Shown here: in pieces, positions 4,086 through 27,043 of the stretch
How the letters are laid out: each line of letters begins with the position of its first letter
How positions within the stretch are numbered: position 1 is the first letter of the stretch
IMG/VR virus record: IMGVR_UViG_3300007722_000062
Coordinates: 1-33,046 of that record
Source: a virus
DNA length: 33,046 nucleotides
Strand: one strand, 5' to 3'
Position numbers and translations under genes: made by a program
The notes under the pieces: model-generated
Database searches by the model: none
Seen by the model: the letters and a program-made list of their open reading frames with translations, nothing else
What the model was told of the DNA's origin: nothing

Positions 4086-7000
4086 ATGGCCGACGCAGCA
4101 GGCATGAACATGGTTGGCAAGGTCGCCAACATAGGGTCGAACCCCACGAAGTCGTCGGGCGACGACGATAGCAAGATGGCTACCATGCGCAGCCGCCTCC
4201 AGATGGCCATGGCCGCGTATTCGGACAGCCGCGAGGACGAACTGGACGATTTGCGGTTTATGGCCGGCAGTCCTGACAACCAGTGGCAGTGGCCCGCCGA
4301 TGTGCTGGCCACCCGCGGTAGCGTGCAGGGCCAGACGATCAACAGCCGCCCATGCCTGACAATCAACAAGCTGCCGCAGCACGTCCGCCAAGTGACAAAC
4401 GACCAGCGGCAGAATCGGCCCAGCGGTAAAGTCATCCCCGCCGACGACGCCGCCGACGTGCAGGTGGCGGAGATTTTTAACGGCATTGTGCGGCATATAG
4501 AGTATATGTCTGACGCCGACGTGGCATACGATACGGCTTGCGATAACCAGGTGACCTACGGCGAAGGCTACATTCGCTTGTTGACCGAGTATTGCAACGA
4601 CGAGACGTTTGACCAGGACATTCGCATCAAGCGCGTCCGCAACGCCTTTAGCGTTTACATGGACCCGACAATTCAAGACCCTACAGGGTCTGACGCCAAA
4701 TGGTGTTTTATCACCGAGGACATTCTTAAGACCGAATACGAGGAAATGTTTCCTGACGCCTCGCCGGTATCGACGTTGATGGCGCAAGGCGTTGGCAACG
4801 AAAGCATGGCTCAATGGCTGGCGGAAGACACAATCCGTATTGCCGAGTATTTCTATTGCGCCCATGAACCGGCTGTTCTGCATCTTTACCCCGACAACCA
4901 AACAGCGTTCTCGGGAACGAATCGCGACAAACAGTTGACCGCATCTTTTGGCCCGCCGGTTCGCAAGCGTAACGTAAGCCGTAATAAGGTCATGTGGATG
5001 AAAACCAATGGCTTTGACGTTTTAGAAGAACGGGAATGGCCGGGCAAATGGATTCCTGTAGTCCGCGTGATAGGCAACGAGTTTGAAGTCGAGGGACGCA
5101 TTTACATCAGCGGCCTTGTGCGTAACGCCAAGGACGCCCAGCGGATGTATAATTATTGGTGCCCCTTGGCCCTCGACACGCCAGTCCCGACGCCTTCAGG
5201 CTGGGCTGTCATGGGCGATCTAGTCCCCGGCGATACAGTATTCGACGAACACGGCAAGCCTTGCTTGGTTAAGGGTCTAAGCCCGGTGTTCATCAACCGT
5301 GACTGCTACCGCGTGGCGTTCGACGACGGGAGCACCATCGTTGCAGACGGCGAACACCTGTGGGCTGTAGAGGCGCGCGGCGCGCGCAAGGCTACCACTT
5401 GGGACTGGTCCGATAAGACTATCCCCACCCGCGAATTGGTTGCGGGAACGCACTTCATCAAGATGGCCGCGCCGCTCGACTGCCCACAAGTTGAATTACC
5501 CCTGGATCCCTATTTCCTCGGCGTATGGCTCGGAGATGGAGACACGATCAACCCGCAGATTACTCAGGGCGCGGTAGATATAGAACCTATGCGCGCGGTG
5601 CTAAAGGCCAAAGGACTGGATGTAGGCGCGGTGCGGAAGTCCAGCACCACGTTCCGCTTCACGGTGCACGGCGTGCGCGGGCGTATGGCCGAGATGGGCC
5701 TGCTAGGCCGCAAGCATATCCCCGCCGAATACCTGCGGGCGTCCCGCGAGCAGCGCCTCGAACTTCTGAGGGGCCTTATGGACACTGATGGGTCCATCAG
5801 CGCCAATGGGCAATGCTCGTTTACGACGGTGTTGGATAGCCTGCGAGGAGGCATGGAAGAACTTCTACGCTCGCTGGGGTTGAAGGCTATCGCGCTGGAA
5901 CGTGCGGGCTTGATGCAGAAATTTCCCTCCGGACAGACATACCAGTGCGCGGACTCGTGGCAGTTTTCTTTCTCGCTTCCGGCTGGCACCCAGCCGTTCT
6001 GCCTGCCGCGCAAGCAAGCTGGGGTCGGGAAGCGCAAGGCGCACCCGCGCCGCACTCAGCGGTTCACTATATCATCTATCGAGCGCGTGCCTTCGGTCCC
6101 TGTAAGGTGCATCGGCGTAGATACGCCGACGCATTTGTTCCTCGCGGGGGACGCGATGGTACCAACGCACAACAGCCAAGAGGCTGAAATGCTGGCGCTG
6201 GCACCCAAGGCACCCTTTATTGCTTACGGTGGCCAGTTTGAAGGCTATGAGAACCAATGGAAAACGGCCAACGTAAACAACTGGCCGTATCTGGAGGTCA
6301 ACCCGGACGTGACCGACGGCGCGGGCAACGTCTTGCCGCTGCCGCAACGCGCGCAGCCTCCGCTACCCCAGACCGCCTTGATTCAGGCCAAGATGGGCGC
6401 CGCAGACGACATTAAAGGCACAACAGGCCAATATGATGCCAGTCTGGGGATGCAGGGCAACGAACGTTCAGGTAAGGCCATTCTTGCCCGCGAGAAGCAG
6501 GGCGACGTGGGCACCTACCATTACGTTGACAACCTTGCCCGCGCTATCCGCCAGCTTACGCGGCAGATTGTCGACATAATCCCCAAGATTTACGACACGC
6601 AACGTGTCGCGCGCATCATCGGTATTGATAATGAAGTCAGCATGGTCAAGTTTAACCCGGCGCAGCCCGAACCGGTTAAAGAAGTCCGCGACCAGGACGG
6701 CGCGATGGTAGAGAAAATCTACAACCCCACTGTCGGCACTTACGATGTGATGGTTACGACTGGCCCGGGCTACATGACCAAGCGTCAGGAAGCCCTAGAT
6801 GCCATGAGCCAGATTCTACAGACCAACCCGCAGCTTTGGTCTGTGGCAGGCGATCTGTTCATCAAGAACATGGACTGGCCCGGCGCGCAAGAAATAGCGG
6901 CACGGTTCAAGAAGATTCTCGACCCGAAAGTTCTGTCGGAAGGCGACCAGTCGCCTGAGATGATGCAAGCGCATCAGCAGATAGAAGCCATGACGCAAGA

Positions 7001-7367
7001 GCTAAACCGTATGTCGGACATTATGAGCCATGTGCAGGACAGCGTTGCCCAACGCGAAGTGGACATCAAGGAATACAAGGCTCAAGTGGACGCCTACGAT
7101 GCCGAAACCAAGCGCATAAGCGCCATGCAAAACAGTATGTCGCCCGAACAAGTCCAAGATATCGTTATGGGCACCATTCACGCAGCTATTGAAACTGGCG
7201 ATCTTTCCGGGGGTATGCCCCGGATGCCGGAAGCAAAAGAGCCGCGTGAGATGCCCTACGCGGGTGAAGGGCAGGAACCACAGGGTGGTATGGCCCCCGA
7301 AGCCCCCCAGATGGCTCCAGAAGCCCCCCAGATGGCTCCAGAAGCCCCCGAAGGAATGATGGCATGA
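4086..7367 (+). CDS. P22-like portal protein interrupted by an intein
   Basis: The 1093-residue precursor would form the 12-subunit portal ring at one capsid vertex. Residues 1-358 and 697-1093 form the portal, about 755 residues after splicing (P22 portal is 725). Portal features are the N-terminal LTINKLPQHVRQVTNDQRQN, FSVYMDPTIQDPTGSDAKWC, AKDAQRMYNYW just before the insertion and MLALAPKAPFIAYGGQFEGY just after it, then GTTGQYDASLGMQGNERSGK. The C-terminus is helical, then a Pro/Met-rich tail with 7-residue EAPQMAP repeats (21-bp direct repeat at 7299-7340). Residues 359-696 are an intein, listed separately. The gene ends in an ATGA overlap with the next. Confidence 0.92.
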   Translation: MADAAGMNMVGKVANIGSNPTKSSGDDDSKMATMRSRLQMAMAAYSDSREDELDDLRFMAGSPDNQWQWPADVLATRGSVQGQTINSRPCLTINKLPQHVRQVTNDQRQNRPSGKVIPADDAADVQVAEIFNGIVRHIEYMSDADVAYDTACDNQVTYGEGYIRLLTEYCNDETFDQDIRIKRVRNAFSVYMDPTIQDPTGSDAKWCFITEDILKTEYEEMFPDASPVSTLMAQGVGNESMAQWLAEDTIRIAEYFYCAHEPAVLHLYPDNQTAFSGTNRDKQLTASFGPPVRKRNVSRNKVMWMKTNGFDVLEEREWPGKWIPVVRVIGNEFEVEGRIYISGLVRNAKDAQRMYNYWCPLALDTPVPTPSGWAVMGDLVPGDTVFDEHGKPCLVKGLSPVFINRDCYRVAFDDGSTIVADGEHLWAVEARGARKATTWDWSDKTIPTRELVAGTHFIKMAAPLDCPQVELPLDPYFLGVWLGDGDTINPQITQGAVDIEPMRAVLKAKGLDVGAVRKSSTTFRFTVHGVRGRMAEMGLLGRKHIPAEYLRASREQRLELLRGLMDTDGSISANGQCSFTTVLDSLRGGMEELLRSLGLKAIALERAGLMQKFPSGQTYQCADSWQFSFSLPAGTQPFCLPRKQAGVGKRKAHPRRTQRFTISSIERVPSVPVRCIGVDTPTHLFLAGDAMVPTHNSQEAEMLALAPKAPFIAYGGQFEGYENQWKTANVNNWPYLEVNPDVTDGAGNVLPLPQRAQPPLPQTALIQAKMGAADDIKGTTGQYDASLGMQGNERSGKAILAREKQGDVGTYHYVDNLARAIRQLTRQIVDIIPKIYDTQRVARIIGIDNEVSMVKFNPAQPEPVKEVRDQDGAMVEKIYNPTVGTYDVMVTTGPGYMTKRQEALDAMSQILQTNPQLWSVAGDLFIKNMDWPGAQEIAARFKKILDPKVLSEGDQSPEMMQAHQQIEAMTQELNRMSDIMSHVQDSVAQREVDIKEYKAQVDAYDAETKRISAMQNSMSPEQVQDIVMGTIHAAIETGDLSGGMPRMPEAKEPREMPYAGEGQEPQGGMAPEAPQMAPEAPQMAPEAPEGMMA
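5160..6173 (+). other. intein with LAGLIDADG homing endonuclease inside the portal
   Basis: A 338-residue intein, portal residues 359-696. It starts at Cys359 (CPLALDTPVPTPSGWAVMGD). A block-B-like segment, DDGSTIVADGEHLW, contains His424. Two LAGLIDADG-like helices follow: FLGVWLGDGD with Asp484 and LLRGLMDTDG with Asp568. The C-terminal splice block is RCIGVDTPTHLFLAGDAMVP ending His695-Asn696, with Ser697 as the +1 residue. All splicing residues and both nuclease acids are present, so it looks active in splicing and homing. Unusual: Pro directly follows Cys359, giving one residue more than the commoner CLALDTP start. Confidence 0.9.
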
Positions 7368-7726
7368 CTTGCGCTGACTTTGTAGGGGCCCTGTTCCTCG
7401 CCCGCGACGTGACGCACAGCACGCATTTGAACACGCGCAGCTATGCCAAGCATAAGGCTTTGCAGAAATTTTATGAAAATATCATTGATCTAACCGACAA
7501 TTTTGCTGAAGCTTATCAAGGCAAATACGGTCTGATTGGGCCCATCTCGCTTATGACCGCCAAAAAGACCACCAACGTCGTTGAGTTCCTTGAAGGTCAA
7601 GTGGACGAATTGACGGCGATGCGGTATAAAGTCGTCGATAAGGAGTGTACACCGCTCCAGAACATCATCGATGAGATTTTCGGGCTGTATTACTCTACCC
7701 TCTACAAGCTGAAATTTTTGGCGTAA
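7364..7726 (+). CDS. DUF5856-like phage protein
   Basis: A 120-residue protein beginning MTCADFVGALFLARDVTHST, with LNTRSYAKHKALQKFYENI, DLTDNFAEAYQGKYGLIGP and a C-terminal IFGLYYSTLYKLKFLA. Its all-helical look with spaced His/Glu/Asp recalls DUF5856, which I remember as a phage family with a ferritin/Dps-like appearance; this comes from memory. It begins within the ATGA that ends the portal gene, so translation is probably coupled. Function in the phage is unknown. Confidence 0.7.
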   Translation: MTCADFVGALFLARDVTHSTHLNTRSYAKHKALQKFYENIIDLTDNFAEAYQGKYGLIGPISLMTAKKTTNVVEFLEGQVDELTAMRYKVVDKECTPLQNIIDEIFGLYYSTLYKLKFLA

Positions 7727-10703: not shown

Positions 10704-11414
10704 ATGACGACTGCTGGCGACATCATCAACGGCTCACTCAGGCTTTTGGGTGTGCTGGCCGAAGGCGAAGTGCCGTCAGCCGAAACGTCGCAAGACGCGC
10801 TGAACGCCATGAATCAGATGATTGATAGCTGGAACACCGAACGACTGTCGGTGTTTTCCACGCAAGACCAGGTATTTACTTGGCCCGCAGGTGTGCTGTC
10901 GCGGACGATGGGGCCAAGCGGCGACTTTGTTGGCAACCGTCCTGTGTTGCTGGACGACAGCACCTATTTCCGCGACGCCGGCACAGGCATCAGCTACGGC
11001 ATCAAGTTCATCAACCAGCAGCAATACGACGGCATCGCCGTCAAGACGGTCACATCGACCTTTCCGCAGGTCATTTTTATCAACATGACGTTTCCCGACA
11101 TCGAAATGTTTGTCTACCCGCGCCCGACACGCGATCTGGAATGGCACTTCATTTCCGTTGAGGAACTGACTCAGCCCGCCAATCTGGCTACTGTGTTGGC
11201 GTTTCCCCCCGGCTACCTTCGCGCGTTCCGCTACAATCTGGCGTCCGAAATGGCGCCGGAGTTTGGTGTCGCGCCATCGGCACAAGTCATGCGCATCGCC
11301 ATGACCAGCAAGCGTAACCTGAAGCGCATCAACAACCCCGGCGACGTTATGGCAATGCCGTATAGTCTTATGGCTTCGCGCCAGCGGTTTAACATCTACG
11401 CGGGTAATTACTGA
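10704..11414 (+). CDS. P22 gp4-like tail accessory / head-completion protein
   Basis: A 236-residue protein expected to bind below the portal ring as the first tail-machine adaptor, stopping DNA leakage. Typical features are the N-terminal helix GDIINGSLRLLGVLAEGE, QDALNAMNQMIDSWNTERLS, FTWPAGV and the C-terminal FPPGYLRAFRYNLASEMAPE. It is longer than P22 gp4 (166 residues), as in many relatives. Its TGA overlaps the next ATG. Confidence 0.85.
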   Translation: MTTAGDIINGSLRLLGVLAEGEVPSAETSQDALNAMNQMIDSWNTERLSVFSTQDQVFTWPAGVLSRTMGPSGDFVGNRPVLLDDSTYFRDAGTGISYGIKFINQQQYDGIAVKTVTSTFPQVIFINMTFPDIEMFVYPRPTRDLEWHFISVEELTQPANLATVLAFPPGYLRAFRYNLASEMAPEFGVAPSAQVMRIAMTSKRNLKRINNPGDVMAMPYSLMASRQRFNIYAGNY

Positions 11415-12844
11415 TGCAAACGCCGATCCTTGGGTCGGCGTATGTCGCGCGCAGCGTCAACGCCGCCGACAACCGCATGGTCAACCTTTTCCCCGAAGTC
11501 GTGCCTGAAGGCGGCAAAATGCCTGCGTTTTTGCAACGCGCGCCGGGGCTGGCGTTGTTGGTCACGCTTGGCACCGGCCCTATCCGGGGGATGTGGCAAT
11601 ACGGCGTTTACGGCTACGCCGTGTCGGGCAACACGCTTTACCAGATTGATAGCAATTGGGTTGGCACCGCCAAAGGCACTGTAGCGGGTACAGGGCCGGT
11701 TAGCATGGCCGACAACGGAATCCAGCTATTCATCGCGGCCAATCCGCAAGGATACATCTACAACGCCAACACCGACGTGTTTCAGCAGATCACTGACCCT
11801 GACTTTCCCGGCGCGGGCACGGTCGGCTATATCGACGGCTATTTTACCTTCAACGAACCTAACAGCCAAAAGATTTGGGTGACGTCGCTCCTTGACGGCA
11901 CTAGCGTTGACCCGCTGGAGTTTGCCAGCGCCGAAGGCAACCCCGACGATGTCGTGGCGGTCTTTGTCGATCACCGTGAGGTTTGGGTGTACGGCACGAA
12001 CTCGGCCGAAGTTTGGTATAACGCAGGCACGCTCGACTTCCCGCTGGCGCGCATCCAAGGCGCGTTTAACGAACTAGGCTGTGCGGCGCCCTACAGCATC
12101 GCCAAGATGGATAACCAGATTTACTGGCTGGGCAAAGACGCTCGTGGGCAGGGCATGGTATTCCGCGCTGCGGGCTACATCGGGCAACGCGTCTCGACGC
12201 ACGCTATCGAATGGCAGATGCAGGAATACGCCGACCTTGAGGACGCGGTGGGCTACACCTACCAGCAAGACGGCCACAGCTTTTACGTGCTGAACTTCCC
12301 TAGCGCTAACACGACTTGGGTGTTTGATGTCGCGACCGGCGCGTGGCATGAGCGCGCTTCGTTTTCTAACGGTCAGCTTAACCGCCACCGCGGCAACTCG
12401 CAGATGTTTTTCAACGTGACGAACGTGGTTGGCGACTATGAGAACGGCAAGATTTACGCTTTTGACCTGAACGTCTACGCCGACGACGGCCAACCTCAGA
12501 AGTGGCTGCGGTCGTGGCGGGCATTGCCGACGGGCGCCAACAACCTGACGCGCACAATCCAACACGCCATGCAGCTAGACTGCGAGACGGGCGTCGGCTT
12601 GAACTTAGGCCAAGGCGCAGACCCGCAAGTCATGCTACGCTTTTCTGACGACGCAGGGCATACCTGGTCAAACGAACATTGGAAGTCGATGGGCGCGTTG
12701 GGCCAGTTTAACAAACGCACCATCTGGCGACGCCTTGGCGCGACTATGAAGATACGCGACCGCGTGTACGAAATCTCCGGCACTGACCCCGTGCGCATCT
12801 ACATCATGGGTGCTGAACTGATCCTAAGCGGGACGCGGGCCTGA
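11414..12844 (+). CDS. P22 gp10-like packaged-DNA stabilisation protein
   Basis: 476 residues, almost the length of P22 gp10 (472), the tail-hub factor that binds gp4 and the tailspike. Motifs include DNRMVNLFPEVVPEGGK at about 20-36, APGLALLVTLGTGPIRGMW, and the beta-propeller-like repeats ADNGIQLFIAANPQGYIYNA, DHREVWVYGTNSAEVWYNAG and QDGHSFYVLNFPSANTTWVF. It is the second gene of a gp4-gp10-tail run with one-base overlaps on both sides. Confidence 0.88.
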   Translation: MQTPILGSAYVARSVNAADNRMVNLFPEVVPEGGKMPAFLQRAPGLALLVTLGTGPIRGMWQYGVYGYAVSGNTLYQIDSNWVGTAKGTVAGTGPVSMADNGIQLFIAANPQGYIYNANTDVFQQITDPDFPGAGTVGYIDGYFTFNEPNSQKIWVTSLLDGTSVDPLEFASAEGNPDDVVAVFVDHREVWVYGTNSAEVWYNAGTLDFPLARIQGAFNELGCAAPYSIAKMDNQIYWLGKDARGQGMVFRAAGYIGQRVSTHAIEWQMQEYADLEDAVGYTYQQDGHSFYVLNFPSANTTWVFDVATGAWHERASFSNGQLNRHRGNSQMFFNVTNVVGDYENGKIYAFDLNVYADDGQPQKWLRSWRALPTGANNLTRTIQHAMQLDCETGVGLNLGQGADPQVMLRFSDDAGHTWSNEHWKSMGALGQFNKRTIWRRLGATMKIRDRVYEISGTDPVRIYIMGAELILSGTRA

Positions 12845-15995: not shown

Positions 15996-16331
15996 ATGGC
16001 AGTCAACATCAGCAACATCATCCCGGCGAAGACCGCGGAGAACAGCCAGACAACGCAGTACATCTCAAACGGTGTGCAGACGATCATCGACAAGTTCACG
16101 GCGACCAACTACAGCGCCGCGGCTGCGACGATTAGCGTCAACTTGGTGACGGCAGCGGGCAGCGCAGGCAACGACAATTTGATCGTCAAGACCAAGACGC
16201 TCCAGCCAACCGAGACCTACACCTTTCCGGAACTGGTTGGCCACGTCCTGCCGGGCGGCGGCTTCATCTCGACGATTGCCGGAACGGCGTCTGCAATCAA
16301 CATCCGCGCGTCGGGACGGCTGGTCAGCTAA
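15996..16331 (+). CDS. small beta-sandwich-like virion protein
   Basis: 111 residues, beginning MAVNISNIIPAKTAENSQTT, then TIIDKFTATNYSAAAATISV and a C-terminal ISTIAGTASAINIRASGRLV. It looks like an immunoglobulin-like or beta-sandwich small structural protein of the kind found beside tailspikes. AAGGACGAG precedes the ATG. It ends with TAATG, coupling it to the cupin-SET gene. Specific role unknown. Confidence 0.65.
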   Translation: MAVNISNIIPAKTAENSQTTQYISNGVQTIIDKFTATNYSAAAATISVNLVTAAGSAGNDNLIVKTKTLQPTETYTFPELVGHVLPGGGFISTIAGTASAINIRASGRLVS

Positions 16332-17185
16332 TGTTGGCGCTAGCTGAAAACCTGCTAACAACATCAGCGTTTACCGACGCCGAGGTTGAGACCCTAGAGG
16401 CGGCTTTTCTACAGCAGGAGCAGGCCGACTGCCCGGTCACGCACCACTTCGGCCCCGGCGTGTATATTCGCGAAGTCGTGTTGCCGACAGGCGCGTATGT
16501 TATCGGCCACCGCCATAAGGCTTCGCACGTCAACATCATGCTTGAAGGCCGCATAACGCTGTTTAACCAGGACGGCACGCGGACGGAACTGACCGCGCCG
16601 CAAACGTTTGTAGGCGGCGCCGGGCGCAAGATTGCTTACATCCACGAAACAGTGCGCTGGCAGAACGTCTACGCAACCGACGAGACGGATGTGGAAACGC
16701 TGGAAGCGCAAATTCTCGACAAGAGCGTTGTGTCGGAAGAATTTCACAAAGCTAACAGGTTGATGCTGGCCCATAGCTGCAACGCAGACCATGAAGATTT
16801 TGCAGCAGCGATTGCCGAGTATGAGCTTGACCCGGGTACCGTATGGTCAATGTCTTTGGACGAGACAGACCAAATACCGCTGCCTCACGGTAGCTACAAG
16901 ATGCTGGTGGCGGATTCACTTATCCACGGTAAAGGCGTGTTTGCGTCCGACAATATCGCGCAATATGAACTTATCGCGCCCGCGCGGTTAGGCGGAAAAC
17001 GCACGCCCGCAGGCCGTTACACTAACCATTCTGCGGCCCCTAACGCCGTAATGCTTATGGATAACCACGGCGACATATACTTGTTTGCTTCGCAGTCGAT
17101 TTTGGGGAGCAAAGGTGGTAGCGTGGGGCAAGAAATTACCATAGACTATAGACAGGCTTTGGCGCTGTCGGCGGGAGATAGCTAA
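16331..17185 (+). CDS. cupin-SET domain fusion protein
   Basis: 284 residues, starting by TAATG overlap. The N-terminal half (about 30-125) is a cupin: GAYVIGHRHKASHVNIMLEG supplies His60, His62 and His66, with a second conserved stretch KIAYIHETVRWQNVY (His105). The C-terminal half (about 190-275) is a SET lysine-methyltransferase fold: HGKGVFAS (AdoMet-binding GxG, 199-206), GRYTNHSAAPN (NHS motif, 228-238) and GQEITIDYRQ with the catalytic-type Tyr273. No post-SET cysteines. Substrate unknown: a virion protein such as coat or ejection protein, or a host target, is possible. Position between tailspike and ejection genes favours a late, virion-linked job. Domain calls are from visible motifs. 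Confidence 0.78.
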   Translation: MLALAENLLTTSAFTDAEVETLEAAFLQQEQADCPVTHHFGPGVYIREVVLPTGAYVIGHRHKASHVNIMLEGRITLFNQDGTRTELTAPQTFVGGAGRKIAYIHETVRWQNVYATDETDVETLEAQILDKSVVSEEFHKANRLMLAHSCNADHEDFAAAIAEYELDPGTVWSMSLDETDQIPLPHGSYKMLVADSLIHGKGVFASDNIAQYELIAPARLGGKRTPAGRYTNHSAAPNAVMLMDNHGDIYLFASQSILGSKGGSVGQEITIDYRQALALSAGDS

Positions 17186-17186
17186 T

Positions 17187-18173
17187 ATGAGCGCGGTAGC
17201 GGCAGCAATCATCGGCAGCGTCACCGCAATCGGCGGGGGTCTTATCGCTGCTGGCGGAGCCAAAAGCGCAGCCAAAGCCCAAGTGCAAGCTGCGCAAGAC
17301 GCCAACGCCGCTCAAGAGCGTATGTTTGAAAAGCAGACCGCGCTGCAAGAGCCGTTCCGCCAAGGCGGATTGACCGCCCAAAGCCGAATCTTTGAATTGC
17401 TGGGGCTAAAAGACCCTAACGCGCAGCCTTCTGGCGGCGGGGCTAACAACCCTGCGGCCTATGGGCTGACCCCCGTCCAAATACCTAACTTCGGGTTCGG
17501 CGATTACGGTGGCCAGAGCGGCGGCGGCGCTGTCTATCAAGACGCGCAAGGCAACATCGTAACGGATGTCGCGGGCTATATGGCCCAGCACCCGCTGCCT
17601 GCCAGCGCCGGCGCTCCTAGCGCCGACTTCGGCAAGTATGCGCGCGACTTTGGCAACCAAGACTTCCAGCAAGACCCTGGTTACGCCTTTCGCCAAGCGG
17701 AAGGTCAGAAGGCGCTGGAGCGCAGCGCGGCGGCGCGCGGCGGGCTGCTGTCAGGCGGCACGCTCAAAGGCATCCAGCGGTTCGGGCAGGACTTGGCCAG
17801 CCAAGAATACCAGAACGCCTTTAATCGGTATCAGGTAAACCGTTCCAACCAGCTAAATCCGCTTCAGTCGCTGATGGGTTCTGGCCAGTCTGCCACCAAC
17901 ACGCTGACCGGCGCGGCAGGGCAGCAAGGCCAGAATCAAGCTAACAACCTGATGAACGCTGGCGCCGCCCGCGCGTCGGGCTACGTTGGCGCCGCGAACG
18001 CGCTGGGTGGAGCGTTGAACAGTGTCGGCCAAGCGGCGGCGTCGTATCCGTTGATGCAGGCGCAAATTAATTACTTAAACCGTTCGCCAACGGGCGGCAC
18101 ACCACCAATCTACGACAATAACATGAAATATCTAAATTCCAATGGCGGTATACCTATTGGCGCAGGGGGTTAA
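17187..18173 (+). CDS. probable ejection / internal virion protein 1
   Basis: 328 residues. The hydrophobic Gly/Ala N-terminus (AAAIIGSVTAIGGGLIAAGG, residues 5-24) could enter a membrane, followed by a helical AKAQVQAAQDANAAQERMF. The middle is Gly/Gln-rich. The segment DPGYAFRQAEGQKALERSAA, then RGGLLSGGTLKGIQRFGQDL, is a pattern I recall from internal virion or DNA-transfer proteins of podoviruses. First of three consecutive genes that fit the P22 gp7/gp20/gp16 ejection set by position and composition; individual equivalence is not claimed. Confidence 0.7.
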   Translation: MSAVAAAIIGSVTAIGGGLIAAGGAKSAAKAQVQAAQDANAAQERMFEKQTALQEPFRQGGLTAQSRIFELLGLKDPNAQPSGGGANNPAAYGLTPVQIPNFGFGDYGGQSGGGAVYQDAQGNIVTDVAGYMAQHPLPASAGAPSADFGKYARDFGNQDFQQDPGYAFRQAEGQKALERSAAARGGLLSGGTLKGIQRFGQDLASQEYQNAFNRYQVNRSNQLNPLQSLMGSGQSATNTLTGAAGQQGQNQANNLMNAGAARASGYVGAANALGGALNSVGQAAASYPLMQAQINYLNRSPTGGTPPIYDNNMKYLNSNGGIPIGAGG

Positions 18174-18175
18174 GA

Positions 18176-19774
18176 ATGGCTAACCAGATGATTGCGCTCC
18201 AGGCCCGCGCACCGCAAGGCAACCCCCTTGGGGGCGCTATCGCGCAAGGCGCGCAGATGATTAACATGCTGCGCCAGCAGCAGGCGCTTGACCGCCAAGC
18301 TGCGTCTGCGGAACAGTTCGCGCGGCTTCAGCAAGCGCAGGACAGCCGCGCTGTAGCTAAGGAAGGGCGTGAGACTGAATTGCATCCCTTTGCGGTTAGT
18401 GAAGCCCAATTAAAATCAACGGCTGAAAAAATTAAAACTGGAATGGCATTTACCGCGTCTATCTACACCGCCGCGTCAAACGCAAATTCGCCGCAAGAAT
18501 TTACGGCATACGCGCAACGAATTGCAGCAGCGCCTGAATTTCAAGATCCAATATTTCAAGGCGGTTTAGGAGAAGTTGTTAAGTCAATGCCTCAAGACCC
18601 GGCGCAATTTGCGGCGTGGAGGAAAGAAACCGGTATCAAAACGATTGACGCCAACGAACGATATAAAAATATTTTAACGAACCAAGAGACGTCTACAGGC
18701 AAACGGCAAATCGCTACCAACCCGTATGGTGCGCCTAACGCTACGGTTGTTCCCGGTTCCGAAACCGATACGGGGACAGAGGTGACTTACGTCAAAGGCG
18801 CAAACGGCGAAGTTATCCCGGTTCCTAAGCGTATGGGGGGCGCTCCCCCGACAACGGCGTCTTCGCCGACTGGCGCACCGCGGGGTTCAGAAATTGAACA
18901 ACTGGCAAACCAGTTAAACCCCGGCGTTGTTGTCAGCGGTCGTGCGCGCACGCCCGCGCGCAACGCCGAAGTCGGCGGCGTCCGCAACAGCTTGCATCTT
19001 AGCGATAACGCGCGCGACTTTGTGCCAGGCAAAGGACAGACCTTGGCGACATTGGCGTCGAGCCTCCAGCCCCTCAAAGCGCAGGGCTTCGATGTTATCG
19101 TTGAACGCGATCATGTTCATGTCGAACCGTCGCGGCGCGGAACCGCTGGCGGCGGTGTACGGATGGGCCAGCCTATCCCCGGCACAGGCACCGCAGACAA
19201 GCCCAAAGAATTAACCGGTTCGGAGCAAACATCGACCTACAACATCAAGCGTTTGCTGCGCGGCGCGCAGGCAATTAGTACCGCGGTAGAAAAAGATCCT
19301 AGCGCCGGCGCTCCTTCTGGCTTTGAAGCGTTTGTTGGCAACACGCCGCTTTTCGGGCGCGCGGTTAATTTCACGCGCGGGGCGCAGCGCCAGATTGTCT
19401 CCGCCGCCCAGCGCGACATTCTGGACGCGCTGCTGTATCTGGCCACAGGCGCCGCGTATAACAAAGAGCAGCTTGAAGGCCAGATGGAGTCTTACGTCAC
19501 CGCGTACTCGGACGAACCCGCAGCAATTGAATCCAAACGCCAGCGTTTGTCGCAGCTAGTGCTAGACGCAAAATCGCGGGCCGGGAAAGGGTGGACGCCG
19601 GAAGTAGACGCCGCCGCAAAAAAATTGTTTGGTAACGCAGGCTCCGCTTCTAAAACGCCGTCAGCCAACAACGCCGGAGCGCAAAAGACGCCAGTGGCCA
19701 AACCGCCAGAGGGCCTTTCGGCGGACGATTGGAAATATATGACCGCAGAGGAGCGTCGGCTGTGGCAGAAATGA
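18176..19774 (+). CDS. ejection protein with M15-like peptidase domain
   Basis: 532 residues. The N-terminal 120 are helical and Gln/Ala-rich. At about 255-320, SGRARTPARNAEVGGVRNSL continues into HLSDNARDF and ends with VERDHVHVEPS, fitting the zinc-binding SxHx(4-5)AxD and HxH pattern of M15-type D,D-peptidases (two His and one Asp as ligands). A second helical block (340-470) follows, then a linker and the terminal LSADDWKYMTAEERRLWQK. It is likely packaged in the head and helps DNA cross the peptidoglycan. The gene overlaps the next by ATGA. Confidence 0.72.
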   Translation: MANQMIALQARAPQGNPLGGAIAQGAQMINMLRQQQALDRQAASAEQFARLQQAQDSRAVAKEGRETELHPFAVSEAQLKSTAEKIKTGMAFTASIYTAASNANSPQEFTAYAQRIAAAPEFQDPIFQGGLGEVVKSMPQDPAQFAAWRKETGIKTIDANERYKNILTNQETSTGKRQIATNPYGAPNATVVPGSETDTGTEVTYVKGANGEVIPVPKRMGGAPPTTASSPTGAPRGSEIEQLANQLNPGVVVSGRARTPARNAEVGGVRNSLHLSDNARDFVPGKGQTLATLASSLQPLKAQGFDVIVERDHVHVEPSRRGTAGGGVRMGQPIPGTGTADKPKELTGSEQTSTYNIKRLLRGAQAISTAVEKDPSAGAPSGFEAFVGNTPLFGRAVNFTRGAQRQIVSAAQRDILDALLYLATGAAYNKEQLEGQMESYVTAYSDEPAAIESKRQRLSQLVLDAKSRAGKGWTPEVDAAAKKLFGNAGSASKTPSANNAGAQKTPVAKPPEGLSADDWKYMTAEERRLWQK

Positions 19775-21969
19775 CCATTGAACAGCAACGCGCGTTGGCG
19801 GTTGCCCGCGCGCGTCGCCGCCGCGCGGAAGCCTCGCCGCCTACGCAGCCTGAACCAACCTTTATGAGCGAATTGGGCAACTACACAAAAGGCTTCGCTC
19901 GCGGCGTAGCTTCGGGAGACCCCGCCGGGATGCTGGTGCGCGGTGGCACGTATCTTACCGACAAACTGGGATTAACGACCGGCGCAAACGAAAATGTCAA
20001 CGCCATGCTAAACGCAGGTGAAAACACGCAAAACAAGATGTACCGGGGTGGCCGATTCGTAGGCGAGGTCGCTTCAACTATTCCGGTTATCGCTGCCGGC
20101 GGTGGCGGGGTAACCAAAGGCGGACGGGCGCTTGCGGCGGTTGCCCCGCGTGTGGGCGGCGTGGTTGAGCGTGTGGGCCAAGCCATAGGTAGCGGTGGGC
20201 TTGGCTCGGGGCGCACCGCCGCGCAGACAGCCCAAATGACCCGCACCGCACGCGCCGCGGGATTGGCCGAACGTGTCGCCGGAGGTGCCATCGCAGGCGG
20301 CGGCGGCGCGGCGGTGACTGGAGATGATGTAGGGACTGGCGCGGCGTTTGGCGCAGGGTTGCCAATTGTAGCCAAAGTGATCCGCGCAACCGGCGGCAAA
20401 GTGGCGGACATCACTAAAATGCCCCGCGTTCAAGCGGCCAAGATTATGCGTGAAGCTTTGGGTGCCCGCGCCGACGCGGCCCGCGCGGCGTTTGCTGCTT
20501 TGCCCCCCGACGATCAACGGTTGGCGCGGCAAGTGCTGTTAAGCGCGGGAATTGAACCCCGTATATTTATGGGGCTGGGCGCCGACGTAGAACGCGCATT
20601 ACCCGATCAAGTGGCCGGAGTGTTGGCTAGCCAAGCCGCTACCCGCGAGGCGCGTCTAGCGCAGGCGGCAGGAGGCCGCACGGCGACCGCCACGCGGTCA
20701 ACGACGGAGACTGGCCGCCGCGCTGTCAGCGATGCCACAGGAGGGCAGCGCGACGCCGCGCTGGCGCGGGCTAACGTCGCAGGCGCAGAAGTGCCCGCAG
20801 CGGAACAACTGGCGCAGCGCGCGTTGGCCCTTGCGGACGAACAATCTGGATTGGCCCGCCGCATGACGTTTGGCGCAGAACGCGCGGAGACGCGACTGGG
20901 GCAAGCTGACGACCTTGGAGACGCGTTTGACCCGGCGGCTATCAATCGTGAACGCGGCGTTGCTGGCGCGATGACGCAACGCGGCGAACAAGCCTCGCAG
21001 GGCGCCATTGGTTTGCGCCAGCAGGCGGCTGACATGGAAGATCATGTTGCTAATTTGGCCGCGCAGGGCATGACGCCGTTGCGGGTCATGCCTATCGTGC
21101 AGCAGATTCGCAGTATGGCGGGCCAGCCAGGCACACGCGCCGACGACCTTCAGCGAGGCACTTTGGTAAAGCTGGCCAACAAACTTGAAAGTTTGGCAAA
21201 CGAAAACGGCGTCATCGACGCCCGTGACCTATACCAGCTACGTAAGACAGGCTTGAACGACATTGTAGACCGTCTGCTCGGCGCACGCGCGCAACCATCA
21301 TCAGGCACCAAAGAGCGCACGGCGTCACTTTTGACCAGTCTGCGTCCCATGATAGACGACGCCATTGAAAGCGCGGGGGGCGCAAACTGGAAAGACTATT
21401 TAGTCCGCACGCGGCAAGGCTTTGAAGCAGTCAACCGTCAAGAGTTAGGCGCCAAAGCAGCGCAACTCGCAAAAGAATCGCCAAACGAGTTTATGGCGCT
21501 GATGCGCGGTGAGCGCCCTAAAATGGTAGAAGACGTAATGGGTACGGGTCAATACGACATTGGAGGCATGGCGTTAGCCGACCCAAATCGTTATAAAGCG
21601 TTGAAAACATCCGCGGATGAGATGTCGGTTTTAGACCGTATGGGACAACTGGCTAACGAAGGGCAAGACGCGGCGACGACGTTGATTGGGCGCGAGCGTC
21701 CTATGGTGGCACGCAATCTAACTCGATTTGGTTTAGCTGCGTTTCCACCCGCGCGAATTGCGGCTGATTCCGCACAAACGGCAATATCCAATACCCTTGC
21801 CCCAAAAGTTCGGCAAGAATTAGCGCAAGGAATGTTGTCAGGACCAAATGCGCTGGCGTTACTAAACCAATACCCGACATCATTTCATGCGGACGAAATC
21901 GTAAGCCGTTTGTCTCCGGCCATGCGTAACGCAATGACGCAATCGCTTCTAAAGGGTTTTAACCAGTGA
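19771..21969 (+). CDS. large ejection / internal virion protein
   Basis: 732 residues from ATG 19771 in an ATGA overlap (TTG at 19729 rejected). It begins MTIEQQRALAVARARRRRAE, a basic helix. Residues about 75-170 hold Gly/Ala-rich hydrophobic stretches (STIPVIAAGGGGVTKGGRAL, AGGAIAGGGGAAV) that could form membrane-active segments. The remainder is long Ala/Arg/Gln helix with coiled-coil character. Third and largest of the ejection-type cluster, comparable in size to P22 gp16 (609). No enzymatic motif seen. Confidence 0.7.
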   Translation: MTIEQQRALAVARARRRRAEASPPTQPEPTFMSELGNYTKGFARGVASGDPAGMLVRGGTYLTDKLGLTTGANENVNAMLNAGENTQNKMYRGGRFVGEVASTIPVIAAGGGGVTKGGRALAAVAPRVGGVVERVGQAIGSGGLGSGRTAAQTAQMTRTARAAGLAERVAGGAIAGGGGAAVTGDDVGTGAAFGAGLPIVAKVIRATGGKVADITKMPRVQAAKIMREALGARADAARAAFAALPPDDQRLARQVLLSAGIEPRIFMGLGADVERALPDQVAGVLASQAATREARLAQAAGGRTATATRSTTETGRRAVSDATGGQRDAALARANVAGAEVPAAEQLAQRALALADEQSGLARRMTFGAERAETRLGQADDLGDAFDPAAINRERGVAGAMTQRGEQASQGAIGLRQQAADMEDHVANLAAQGMTPLRVMPIVQQIRSMAGQPGTRADDLQRGTLVKLANKLESLANENGVIDARDLYQLRKTGLNDIVDRLLGARAQPSSGTKERTASLLTSLRPMIDDAIESAGGANWKDYLVRTRQGFEAVNRQELGAKAAQLAKESPNEFMALMRGERPKMVEDVMGTGQYDIGGMALADPNRYKALKTSADEMSVLDRMGQLANEGQDAATTLIGRERPMVARNLTRFGLAAFPPARIAADSAQTAISNTLAPKVRQELAQGMLSGPNALALLNQYPTSFHADEIVSRLSPAMRNAMTQSLLKGFNQ

Positions 21970-22133
21970 CAACAGTGGACAAGAATGAAGCCCGTATGGA
22001 GACCCACGAACAGATTTGCGCGCTTAGATATGAGGGTCTTTGCGCGCGTTTAAAACGTATGGAAACTGTTGCAATCACCGTAGCAGGAACAATTATCATG
22101 CTATTGCTCGCCATCGTGCTGAAGCTGAATTGA
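21966..22133 (+). CDS. small C-terminal-anchored membrane protein of the lysis cassette
   Basis: 55 residues from GTG 21966, which overlaps the preceding TGA (GTGA). The N-terminal half is charged and helical (KNEARMETHEQICALRYEGL) and the C-terminus is one TM helix (VAITVAGTIIMLLLAIVLKL). This XhlA-like or accessory-holin layout, immediately before the endolysin, suggests a role in lysis timing. Its TGA overlaps the endolysin ATG. It is too short to stand out by length but fully consistent by spacing. Confidence 0.65.
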   Translation: MTTVDKNEARMETHEQICALRYEGLCARLKRMETVAITVAGTIIMLLLAIVLKLN

Positions 22134-22525
22134 TGAGTATCATGCTTGGCCCTCGGTCGCTATCTCGCTTGGTAGACGTGCGTCCCGATCTGGTGCGTGT
22201 CGTGAAGCGCGCTGCTGCCATGTCCAGTCTGGACTTCACCGTGTTGGAAGGTCTGCGGACGGTCGCGCGGCAGCATGCGTTGATGGCGCAAGGCGCGACC
22301 AAGACGCTAAACTCGCGGCACCTGACCGGCCACGCCGTCGATCTGGCGCCGATGATCGGCGGCACCGTGCGCTGGGACTGGCCATTGTATCACCAACTAG
22401 CCGCGATTGTGAAAGCTGCTGCGGCGTATGAAAAAGTTCCCGTCACTTGGGGCGGGGATTGGCGGACTTTCAAGGATGGTCCACATTGGGAACTGCCTTG
22501 GAAGCAATACCCAAAGGAGAAGTAG
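22133..22525 (+). CDS. endolysin, M15 L-alanyl-D-glutamate peptidase type
   Basis: 130 residues, start by TGATG overlap. It is a zinc peptidase cutting the peptide stem of peptidoglycan. SRHLTGHAVDLAPM carries the SxHxxGxAxD motif (His and Asp ligands) and DWRTFKDGPHWELPW carries the terminal PHWE His and catalytic Glu. FTVLEGLRTVARQHALMAQG matches the N-terminal part of VanY-like endolysins. No signal peptide, so export depends on the holin. Length is normal for the family. Confidence 0.92.
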   Translation: MSIMLGPRSLSRLVDVRPDLVRVVKRAAAMSSLDFTVLEGLRTVARQHALMAQGATKTLNSRHLTGHAVDLAPMIGGTVRWDWPLYHQLAAIVKAAAAYEKVPVTWGGDWRTFKDGPHWELPWKQYPKEK

Positions 22526-23415: not shown

Positions 23416-23617
23416 CCCAATACCTTTCTTCAGATGCTTTTCGCGCTTTTGCCGCCGCATCTATGCTGTCAAAATACCCAATGTGTTTCTGCTTGTTATC
23501 GACGTAAATAGCCGCGCGCCATTTTTGTTTAGCTTTGCTCCACGAAACGCCGCGTATACCTGTTTTGTTTGTGCTGTGATTCTCCGTGTTCCGCGTTTCA
23601 CCGATCATGTAGCTCAT
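23408..23617 (-). CDS. small AP2/ERF-type DNA-binding domain protein
   Basis: 69 residues. NKTGIRGVSWSKAKQKWRAA, IYVDNKQKHIGYFDSIDAAA and KARKASEERYWDG match the AP2 beta-sheet-plus-helix pattern (GV.w.k...kW.a.I.v.gk..hlG.fd..eeAa.Ar). In phages AP2 usually sits next to an HNH nuclease; no HNH motif is present here, so this is a stand-alone DNA-binding domain or a homing-endonuclease remnant. The start may be 23617 or 23608. Its 5' end overlaps the helicase gene by 20 nt. Confidence 0.8.
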   Translation of the reverse strand: MSYMIGETRNTENHSTNKTGIRGVSWSKAKQKWRAAIYVDNKQKHIGYFDSIDAAAKARKASEERYWDG

Positions 23618-24905
23618 CCATAGCTAAATCAGACACTTTTCGTTTCTCACGCAACGCAGCTAATATCCGGTCGTCTATGGTTTTTTCCGTTATCATCAAA
23701 TACACCCACACATCGCGGGTTTGCCCGCTACGATGAATACGCCCTATCGCTTGTTCAAAATCAACAAGGCTCCAAGGCAGCGACAGAAACACCATCATGT
23801 TACCGCCGAACTGCAAATTCAACCCATATTGTGCGCTTTTAGGGTGCGCTGCAAGCAAAGGTATTTTGCCGCAATTCCACCGTTCAATAGCGTTATCGTC
23901 GTCTAACGTCTGCAAATCCGGGTAACGGCGGCGAAGTTCAGCCAATTCCTCTTGAAAAGTGTAAAAAATTATGGTGTTGGCCCGCTGGTTTTCCGCCAGC
24001 AGTTCCTCTAGCCGGTCAAACTTATGGCTGCTGAACCAGACCGACCCGCCGTTCTCGCGGTCATAAACAAACCCGCTAGACATTTGTTGAAGCTTGGTCG
24101 TCACGGCAGCGGCGTTCTGGGCAATCACAGTAGTATCGCCGCCGAACCGAACGACATAATCTTTCTTCATCTTCTCGTATGGCTTGCTGTCGTCAAACTG
24201 GCAGCGCACCTCAACGACATGGCACGGCGGCAGCTTGTCGCTGTATTCGCCAGGCTCCAGCACAAACGTCGCCGGGCGTATGCGCGCCATTACCTGCTCC
24301 AGCGCGCCCGGCGCAGGTGTCCACTGGCCGAAGTCGCGGTTGATGCAGTGAAAGTATTGCTGGAGAAACGCGCCCTTGGCGCGGCCCAGCAACGCCTGCT
24401 CGACGATCTTGCACTGGCCGAACACATCCTCAAGGCCGTTCGAGGTGAACGAGCCTGTCAGCCCCCAGCGCACGCGAACCGGCGCCAGTAGCTTCTCCAG
24501 CGCCTTGAAGCGTTTACCCGCCGGGTTCTTCAACCGCGTTAGTTCATCAAACACAATTCCGTCAAAGCCTGACAAATCATCTAGCTTGTCAAGGTTGTCG
24601 TAGTTAATAATGACAACCCTGGCATCGCTTTGGATGGCCGCGGCGCGTTGGGCAGGATTCCCGACGGCAAGCGCTGGAGTGATGCCAGACCACTTCGGCG
24701 CTTCGACCGGCCAAACGTCAGTGCAGACGCGCTTGGGCGCGACCACAAGCCAGCGTTTAACGTGGCCGTCGTTCAGCATCGCCTGCATGGCTGTCAGCGT
24801 AATTGCTGTCTTGCCAGCGCCGACAGGCGCAAGAATCATGGCGCGGTCGCGCGCGTACAGGAAGTCTGCCGCGTCGTCCTGATAGGGGCGCAGTTTCAAC
24901 CCCAT
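23598..24905 (-). CDS. SNF2/DEAD-like superfamily 2 helicase
   Basis: 435 residues. RPYQDDAADFLYARDRAMIL is the Q-motif-like start; Walker A is APVGAGKT (26-33), motif II DELT (120-123), GLTGSF is motif III-like, and the C-terminal domain has LNLQFGGNMMVFLSLPWSLV and motif VI FEQAIGRIHRSGQ. This layout matches phage SNF2-type DNA translocases. It is probably used in replication or recombination, with the overlapping VRR-NUC nuclease gene upstream. It is at the short end for SNF2 proteins, as is usual in phages. Confidence 0.9.
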   Translation of the reverse strand: MGLKLRPYQDDAADFLYARDRAMILAPVGAGKTAITLTAMQAMLNDGHVKRWLVVAPKRVCTDVWPVEAPKWSGITPALAVGNPAQRAAAIQSDARVVIINYDNLDKLDDLSGFDGIVFDELTRLKNPAGKRFKALEKLLAPVRVRWGLTGSFTSNGLEDVFGQCKIVEQALLGRAKGAFLQQYFHCINRDFGQWTPAPGALEQVMARIRPATFVLEPGEYSDKLPPCHVVEVRCQFDDSKPYEKMKKDYVVRFGGDTTVIAQNAAAVTTKLQQMSSGFVYDRENGGSVWFSSHKFDRLEELLAENQRANTIIFYTFQEELAELRRRYPDLQTLDDDNAIERWNCGKIPLLAAHPKSAQYGLNLQFGGNMMVFLSLPWSLVDFEQAIGRIHRSGQTRDVWVYLMITEKTIDDRILAALREKRKVSDLAMDELHDR

Positions 24906-26395: not shown

Positions 26396-27043
26396 ATGTC
26401 AAATATCACTGCATTCGGCGGCGCAAATCTGCCGTCGGTTAAGTCTCTGGCCTCGGCTCTGCGTTCTGTCGCTGCCAGCACGGGCGCCAGTTCCAACGGT
26501 ATTATCCTCAAGATGGATAAAACGGGCCATTGGGTGTTCGGTGCTGACCAGACCGAAGTTGAGGATGACAGCCTGTGGGCGGTCAATCCGTTCTCGTTCG
26601 TTCACGGCTATATCGCTTGGGGTGACGGGGAAGTGCTGGCCGAGACAATGGCCAGTGTATCCGAGCCACTGCCAGACCGTGACGCAGCGCCTGCTGCGGC
26701 CAAGCGCGGTTGGGAGATGCAAGTCGGAATGTCGCTGGCCTGCACTTCTGGCGAGGACGAGGGTCTGCAAGTCCGCTACGCGGCTACTTCGGTCGGCGGT
26801 AAAAAGGCCGTACAGGCGTTGGCGATTGCTATCGCCGAACAGGTGGACAAGGACCAGTCCAAGCCGGTGCCGGTAGTGCGCTTCAAGAAGGAGCATTACC
26901 AGCACAAGTCCTATGGCCGCATTTACACGCCTGTCTTTGACATTGTTAAGTGGATTGGTATGGGCGCTGACGCTTCGCCGGAAGTTGAAGCTGAAGACGA
27001 GGCACCCGCCCCTGCCCGCCGCACCCGCCGCGTAGCAGCCTAA
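26396..27043 (+). CDS. putative single-stranded DNA-binding protein
   Basis: 215 residues with AAAGGAA before the ATG. MSNITAFGGANLPSVKSLAS, NGIILKMDKTGHWVFGADQT, FSFVHGYIAWGDGEVL and QHKSYGRIYTPVFDIVKWIG form a beta-rich pattern that I recall as common in phage replication cassettes between nuclease and polymerase. The C-terminus is acidic then basic (EVEAEDEAPAPARRTRRVAA). ssDNA binding is inferred from place and composition; no diagnostic motif was seen. Confidence 0.55.
   Translation: MSNITAFGGANLPSVKSLASALRSVAASTGASSNGIILKMDKTGHWVFGADQTEVEDDSLWAVNPFSFVHGYIAWGDGEVLAETMASVSEPLPDRDAAPAAAKRGWEMQVGMSLACTSGEDEGLQVRYAATSVGGKKAVQALAIAIAEQVDKDQSKPVPVVRFKKEHYQHKSYGRIYTPVFDIVKWIGMGADASPEVEAEDEAPAPARRTRRVAA

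Follow-up and report, generated by a model that had tools for sequence, protein, structure and literature searches.

A cupin-SET fusion protein encoded beside the ejection genes of podophages is a candidate modifier of the ejection complex

RESULTS

The cupin-SET gene and its operon

The window analyzed here is a 33,046-nucleotide stretch of viral DNA (IMG/VR record IMGVR_UViG_3300007722_000062) in which the gene order runs portal, scaffold, coat, adaptor, head closure, three open reading frames (ORFs), cupin-SET, DNA-ejection protein, and two ORFs in ejection slots. This order bears out the location within a virion operon that the original prediction, made by reading the letters of the window, had assigned to the cupin-SET gene. 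The tail/ejection part of the operon and the parts of the fusion protein are as follows, with the evidence for each in brackets.

11414..12844, + strand: head-closure protein Hc3 (P22 gp10-like), with which the tail/ejection part of the operon begins (phrog_578, 1.7e-133)
15996..16331, + strand: small 111-aa protein whose stop overlaps the cupin-SET start (ORF call)
16331..17185, + strand: cupin-SET fusion protein, 284 aa (Pfam, PHROG, AlphaFold, Foldseek, and family profile against the PDB)
16370..16726, + strand: cupin (jelly-roll) domain, residues ~14-132 (PHROG matches, tblastn, and Foldseek; Pfam Cupin_2 sub-threshold)
16727..16879, + strand: helical linker, residues ~133-183 (AlphaFold helices 133-163 and 168-176)
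16880..17173, + strand: SET domain, residues ~184-281; its SET-I insert region is down to ~10 residues (Pfam, profile, and Foldseek)
16928..16936, + strand: SET GxG motif, G200-K-G202 (neither Gly varies among 47 members)
17015..17044, + strand: SET motif R229-x-x-N232-H233-x-x-x-P-N238 (R, N, H, and N invariant in 47 members)
17132..17149, + strand: SET motif E268-I-T-I-D-Y273 (E and the catalytic-position Tyr unchanged in all 47 members)
17187..18173, + strand: DNA-ejection (pilot) protein, first ejection gene, in the P22 gp7 slot (phrog_598 "DNA ejection," 1.5e-38)
18176..19774, + strand: second ejection-protein slot (P22 gp20 position), with an M15 peptidase domain (Pfam Peptidase_M15_3, 4.6e-8; position versus P22)
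19729..21969, + strand: third ejection-protein slot (P22 gp16 position), 746 aa, start uncertain (position only; no Pfam or PHROG match)

At TAATG (16329-16333), the cupin-SET gene starts within the stop of the ORF before it, and its own stop is followed 2 nt later, at 17187, by the start of the next gene, a tight packing that makes translational coupling plausible. The coordinates first given for the gene, and the residues and motifs read in it (His60, His62, His66, HGKGVF, NHS, and EITIDY), were all found in the ORF. It is a genuine gene under selection, far beyond chance: comparison with a close relative (L003) gave dN/dS values of 0.092 for the cupin and 0.076 for the SET half, which indicates purifying selection on both. 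PHROG_34170 matches the protein over its full length (2.6e-78). That family has no function assigned to it; the fold, the slot, and the partners are added by the present analysis. The AlphaFold model of the protein has a mean pLDDT of 89.8 and a pTM of 0.85.

Several other features of the window were recorded. The portal ORF (4086-7367, + strand, 1093 aa) has two stretches that match the P22 portal and, between them, an insert of ~340 residues, which matches unrelated PHROG profiles (terminase, primase, and DnaC-like) as well as LAGLIDADG_3 (E 3e-4) and is probably an intein. Between the portal and scaffold genes lies a homologue of phrog_858, "starvation-inducible transcriptional regulator" (7364-7726, + strand, 1.3e-27). 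An SNF2/DEAD-type helicase is encoded on the minus strand among plus-strand genes (23598-24905), and a nucleotidyltransferase-like protein (26396-27043, + strand; phrog_9528, 8e-16) is placed between the exonuclease and DNA polymerase genes. The M15 domain of the second ejection slot (18176-19774, + strand) places a cell-wall enzyme within a putative ejection protein, and a second M15-type gene, an endolysin, is found at 22040-22525.

The SET domain

The C-terminal half of the protein matches Pfam SET (PF00856) with an E value of 2.4e-6 and 28.3 bits against a gathering cut-off of 22.4; the SET-I insert is not a condition of membership in this Pfam family. A search of PDB chains with the single cupin-SET sequence gave no matches, while a family profile did find SET chains, among them MLL1 (1.5e-7), EZH2 (5e-4), and chlorovirus vSET (2e-3). 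This profile was built from 47 non-redundant members, obtained by clustering 126 complete cupin-SET ORFs that two scans had found in phage contigs. In the AlphaFold model, pLDDT over the SET domain is mostly >90, and Foldseek matched this half to EZH2 and MLL1 (E ~1e-4). Pfam, profile, and Foldseek therefore agree on the SET fold that had been proposed, and structure prediction did not place the C-terminal half outside it.

Residues G200, G202, T225, R229, N232, H233, N238, E268, and Y273 never vary in the 47 members, and those of the GxG, R..NH, and GEE..DY motifs are essentially invariant across the family. The fold and the GxG, R..NH, and E..DY motifs are common to the phage domain, to vSET (A612L of chlorovirus PBCV-1), and to MLL/EZH2, which are enzymes that methylate histones; like the phage domain, vSET is a short viral SET. 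The phage SET differs from these enzymes in its fusion to a cupin, in having almost no SET-I, and in the lack of a recognizable post-SET region. SET-I ordinarily contributes to the substrate groove and spans ~44 residues in MLL1 versus ~10 in the phage SET. With this segment nearly absent, something other than SET-I must make up the rest of the peptide groove; candidates are a second subunit, the substrate, or, within the protein itself, the cupin or the linker helices.

The cupin domain

Foldseek matched the N-terminal half of the model, a double-stranded beta-helix, to PDB cupins with a probability of 1.00, in line with the cupin fold originally read from the sequence. Pfam Cupin_2 scores 17.8 bits with the full protein and 19.2 bits with the isolated half, both below the gathering cut-off of 27.2. 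This half is homologous to phage "short tail fiber" proteins (phrog_12032 and phrog_24280) and to BPP-1 bbp23; the matches to the two "tail fiber" PHROGs are confined to the cupin. The broad cupin alignment was too diverse for use as a scanning profile.

The three histidines for which the domain had been described as a metal-type cupin, His60, His62, and His66, are all present in the window protein, but the triad is not a feature of the family. Among the 47 members, H60 is kept in 45 and H66 in 42, position 62 holds Gln in 27 members and His in the other 20, and residue 105 is His in only 20. In cupin-only relatives, H62 is mostly kept and residue 60 varies, being usually other than His. Since position 62 is often Gln and position 60 is variable in the cupin-only relatives, the family has no conserved three-histidine metal site; the metal-cupin motif 1 (His/His/Glu-or-His) and the motif 2 His are likewise not conserved. 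A short C-terminal tail with a Cys (LCHG, CLG, CQE, or CHP) is found in many of the cupin-SET and cupin-only proteins and is missing from the window protein.

Spread and modularity of the family

The fusion proposed for the window protein proved to be an architecture common to >100 distinct phage proteins, including a full-length relative, gp30 of Rhodoferax phage P26218, in the same operon place. Of 399 Burkholderiales genomes sampled, only one, the prophage-bearing genome used as the centre, contained the phage-type SET, and on this count a bacterial origin was rejected. The original prediction had called the gene unexpected on the ground that SET proteins are mainly eukaryotic or from bacterial pathogens; the same count and the spread among phages indicate a phage family in its own right and not a stray gene of either kind.

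In the tree of cupin domains, most cupin-SETs fall in one clade, and the deep forks are soft because the alignment has only 118 columns. Pseudoalteromonas phage PH1 carries SET and its sister X14 is cupin-only (tree support, 100/100). A second prophage-like locus, from a Paraburkholderia metagenome-assembled genome (L384), likewise carries SET, and in a Paraburkholderia ferrariae genome (L312) it is a separate gene that overlaps the cupin gene and directly follows it. The coupling of SET and cupin is therefore recurrent, with SET attached or adjacent to separate cupin branches. Within the main cupin-SET clade, one locus (L051) encodes a cupin only, its gene overlapping the pilot gene directly, and represents one clean loss of SET. 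Two further "cupin-only" rows in this clade were artifacts, one of a contig end (L159) and one of frameshifts that leave SET in the next ORF (L049). A Comamonadaceae contig (L311) carries SET without cupin, one short ORF before a gene called ejection-like by eye.

A fixed position before the first ejection gene

A pilot gene lies directly downstream of 111 of the 118 distinct cupin-SET genes with enough downstream sequence (pilot start -60 to +100 nt from the stop), a figure that measures the uniformity of the neighbor, as the profile of SET-positive pilot proteins was built from such downstream genes. Five SET-positive pilots that were scanned independently matched PHROG "DNA ejection." A pilot matching the same profile is found directly 3′ of 25 of 40 cupin-only genes. 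Cupin-only relatives stand in the same place in Vibrio, Shewanella, Thalassomonas, Dickeya, Variovorax, Sphaerotilus, and other phages, and hold it in P22-like, T7-like, and other podophages alike. Relatives of the upstream 111-aa protein were found near 77 of 213 SET loci and 15 of 48 cupin-only loci, and the first of these counts led us to reject it as an obligate partner.

The gene order is 10, 26, 14, 7, 20, 16 in P22 and 12, 13, 14, 15, 16 in T7. The cupin-SET gene stands in the slot of P22 gp14 and T7 gp13, immediately before the first ejection gene, and P22 gp14 is annotated as a head-morphogenesis factor.

GNAT proteins in the slot and beside cupins

An AlphaFold model of P22 gp14 (DUF2824) from 22 relatives has a pLDDT of 86.0, and its best PDB matches in Foldseek are N-acetyltransferases (SpeG, E 3e-9; TM 0.7-0.8), from which gp14 is predicted to have a GNAT acetyltransferase fold. 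The evidence is structure prediction: sequence profiles of P22 gp14 and T7 gp13, built from few sequences, gave no relation to the GNAT set. P22 gene 14 corresponds to positions 8911-9366 of L145, and the Pfam label for DUF2824 is still unknown function. P22 gp14 and T7 gp13 share the slot with cupin-SET and both are without a cupin; the modeled GNAT fold of gp14 is unrelated to SET, and cupin-SET is not homologous to the gp14 family. An earlier Cobavirus study noted that a GNAT neighboring the internal virion proteins may correspond to T7 gp13 and suggested a role in morphogenesis (PMC6775973).

GNAT genes also pair with cupins. In BPP-1, the GNAT gene bbp24 (Pfam, 6.4e-7) overlaps the cupin gene bbp23, and a GNAT gene likewise overlaps a cupin gene in ctQRb9 and two further loci (L313/L314), all in the arrangement GNAT, cupin, and small N-terminally hydrophobic protein; the pairing is read from gene neighborhood only. 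As in the window, a member of the same cupin family is paired with an amine-modifying enzyme in BPP-1, but there the enzyme is a GNAT and not SET, the genes are separate, and they are located between terminase and portal. Limnohabitans phage DC33 and ~30 relatives carry an Asp/Asn-hydroxylase-like gene, a GNAT gene, and then, where readable, a small N-terminally hydrophobic protein. These Asp/Asn beta-hydroxylase-like and GNAT genes (L300 4327-5734 and L315-L347; ~30 phage contigs) are possibly a second protein-modification pair. In Vibrio phage 1.209, a GNAT gene precedes a small protein of the N-hydrophobic type. A PHROG scan did not recognize the small proteins after GNAT in BPP-1 and DC33 as ejection proteins, so we refer to them as putative pilots.

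Candidate substrates

A conserved lysine was not found in the pilot proteins of SET-positive phages (best column, 38%), and three of these pilots contain zero lysine. A pilot lysine thus cannot be the universal target of SET and was rejected as such. The methylation target is possibly another virion protein or the N-terminal amine of the pilot, whose start, MSxVA, is its best-conserved stretch, with Ser2 in 49 of 55 sequences. SET enzymes are able to methylate N-terminal amines, as in the Rubisco small subunit, and N-terminal Ser/Ala is acetylated by Rim-type GNATs, so that both reactions could use a single site. Since a small second residue is widespread among proteins of all kinds, the N-terminal amine stays a hypothetical target.

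DISCUSSION

We propose, tentatively and with a little less than even confidence, that the window protein is a cupin-tethered methyltransferase of the SET fold that acts in assembly on the ejection complex or on a tail protein contacting it. The protein would act in the infected cell during virion morphogenesis, from the slot of P22 gp14 and T7 gp13, which follows the head-closure/tail genes and precedes the first ejection gene. Its cupin domain would serve as an assembly or targeting module for the SET half, whose methylation target would be an amino group of the ejection complex or of the contacting tail protein, and this mark may let the ejection complex fold, be packaged, stay stable, or eject properly. 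Both folds, the SET motifs, purifying selection, the fixed position, SET-cupin coupling, the modeled GNAT fold of P22 gp14, and GNAT-cupin pairing were computed; catalytic activity, action during assembly, and a client within the ejection complex are what we infer. Methylation of virion or ejected proteins had been among the functions first suggested for the gene and stands as the leading idea, favored by synteny. The presence of the cupin without SET in many phages indicates that methylation is not needed for the basic job of the slot.

The protein might instead be mainly a structural virion component, such as a collar or short-fiber subunit, in which SET decorates the cupin or modifies only the neighboring subunit. 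Cupin homologues go by the names "short tail fiber protein" or "tail fiber adhesin" in PHROGs and RefSeq, the record of Shewanella X14 gp38 bears the note "structural gene," and cupin-only versions are common. However, we found no experiment behind the fiber label in the papers we searched, and the P26218 and X14 papers mention neither a tail fiber nor a cupin. The invariant active-site motifs and a dN/dS of 0.08 argue against a merely decorative SET, and the P22 annotation makes the slot that of a morphogenesis factor. We therefore regard the structural reading as unlikely.

It is improbable that the protein is a co-packaged effector, ejected with the DNA to methylate a host protein early in infection, although host modification after ejection was also among the functions first suggested. 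The gene immediately adjoins the ejection genes, and some bacterial pathogens have SET proteins with host targets, but the cupin-only versions in the slot and the clean SET loss in L051 suggest that the job of the slot is not host modification, as does the morphogenesis annotation of its P22 occupant. We also give little credence to a catalytically dead SET kept as a binding module, whether for AdoMet or as a peptide reader; the missing SET-I groove segment would fit such a module, yet the NH and Tyr positions are invariant in the 47 members and NH is altered (to NQ) in only 1 of 106 SET segments. Cupin oxidation paired with SET methylation in a demethylation/hydroxylation cycle, an idea of the original prediction that could draw on the cupin fold with some histidines and on the Asp/Asn-hydroxylase-like gene adjoining GNAT in the DC33 clade, is very improbable given metal ligands that are not conserved (Gln at position 62 in most members, a variable residue 60 in cupin-only relatives) and the Cupin_2 score below cut-off.

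Methylation of the ejection complex during assembly, the reading we prefer, may have a wider setting, which we offer as speculation that is more doubtful than the proposal itself. Podophages may hold an "ejection-protein modification slot" in which unrelated amine-modifying enzymes, GNAT acetyltransferases or SET methyltransferases, often with a cupin, swap beside the pilot gene, and the shared substrate of these enzymes may be the N-terminal amine of the pilot.

Our literature search found no paper joining a SET domain, a phage, and a cupin. One phage paper names a SET protein, only within a list (PMC9025141), and acetyltransferases and cupins go unmentioned in a recent review of ejection proteins (PMC8954989). 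New here is a SET methyltransferase domain in a slot otherwise known for an assembly factor of modeled GNAT fold. Little is understood of how podophage ejection proteins are made ready to be packaged and to cross the envelope, and the finding raises the question of whether, and why, phages modify these proteins. If the slot does encode modifying enzymes, genome delivery would depend on methyl or acetyl marks placed deliberately on virion proteins, P22 gp14 and T7 gp13 would gain a functional reading, and SET methyltransferases would have a clear role in phages.
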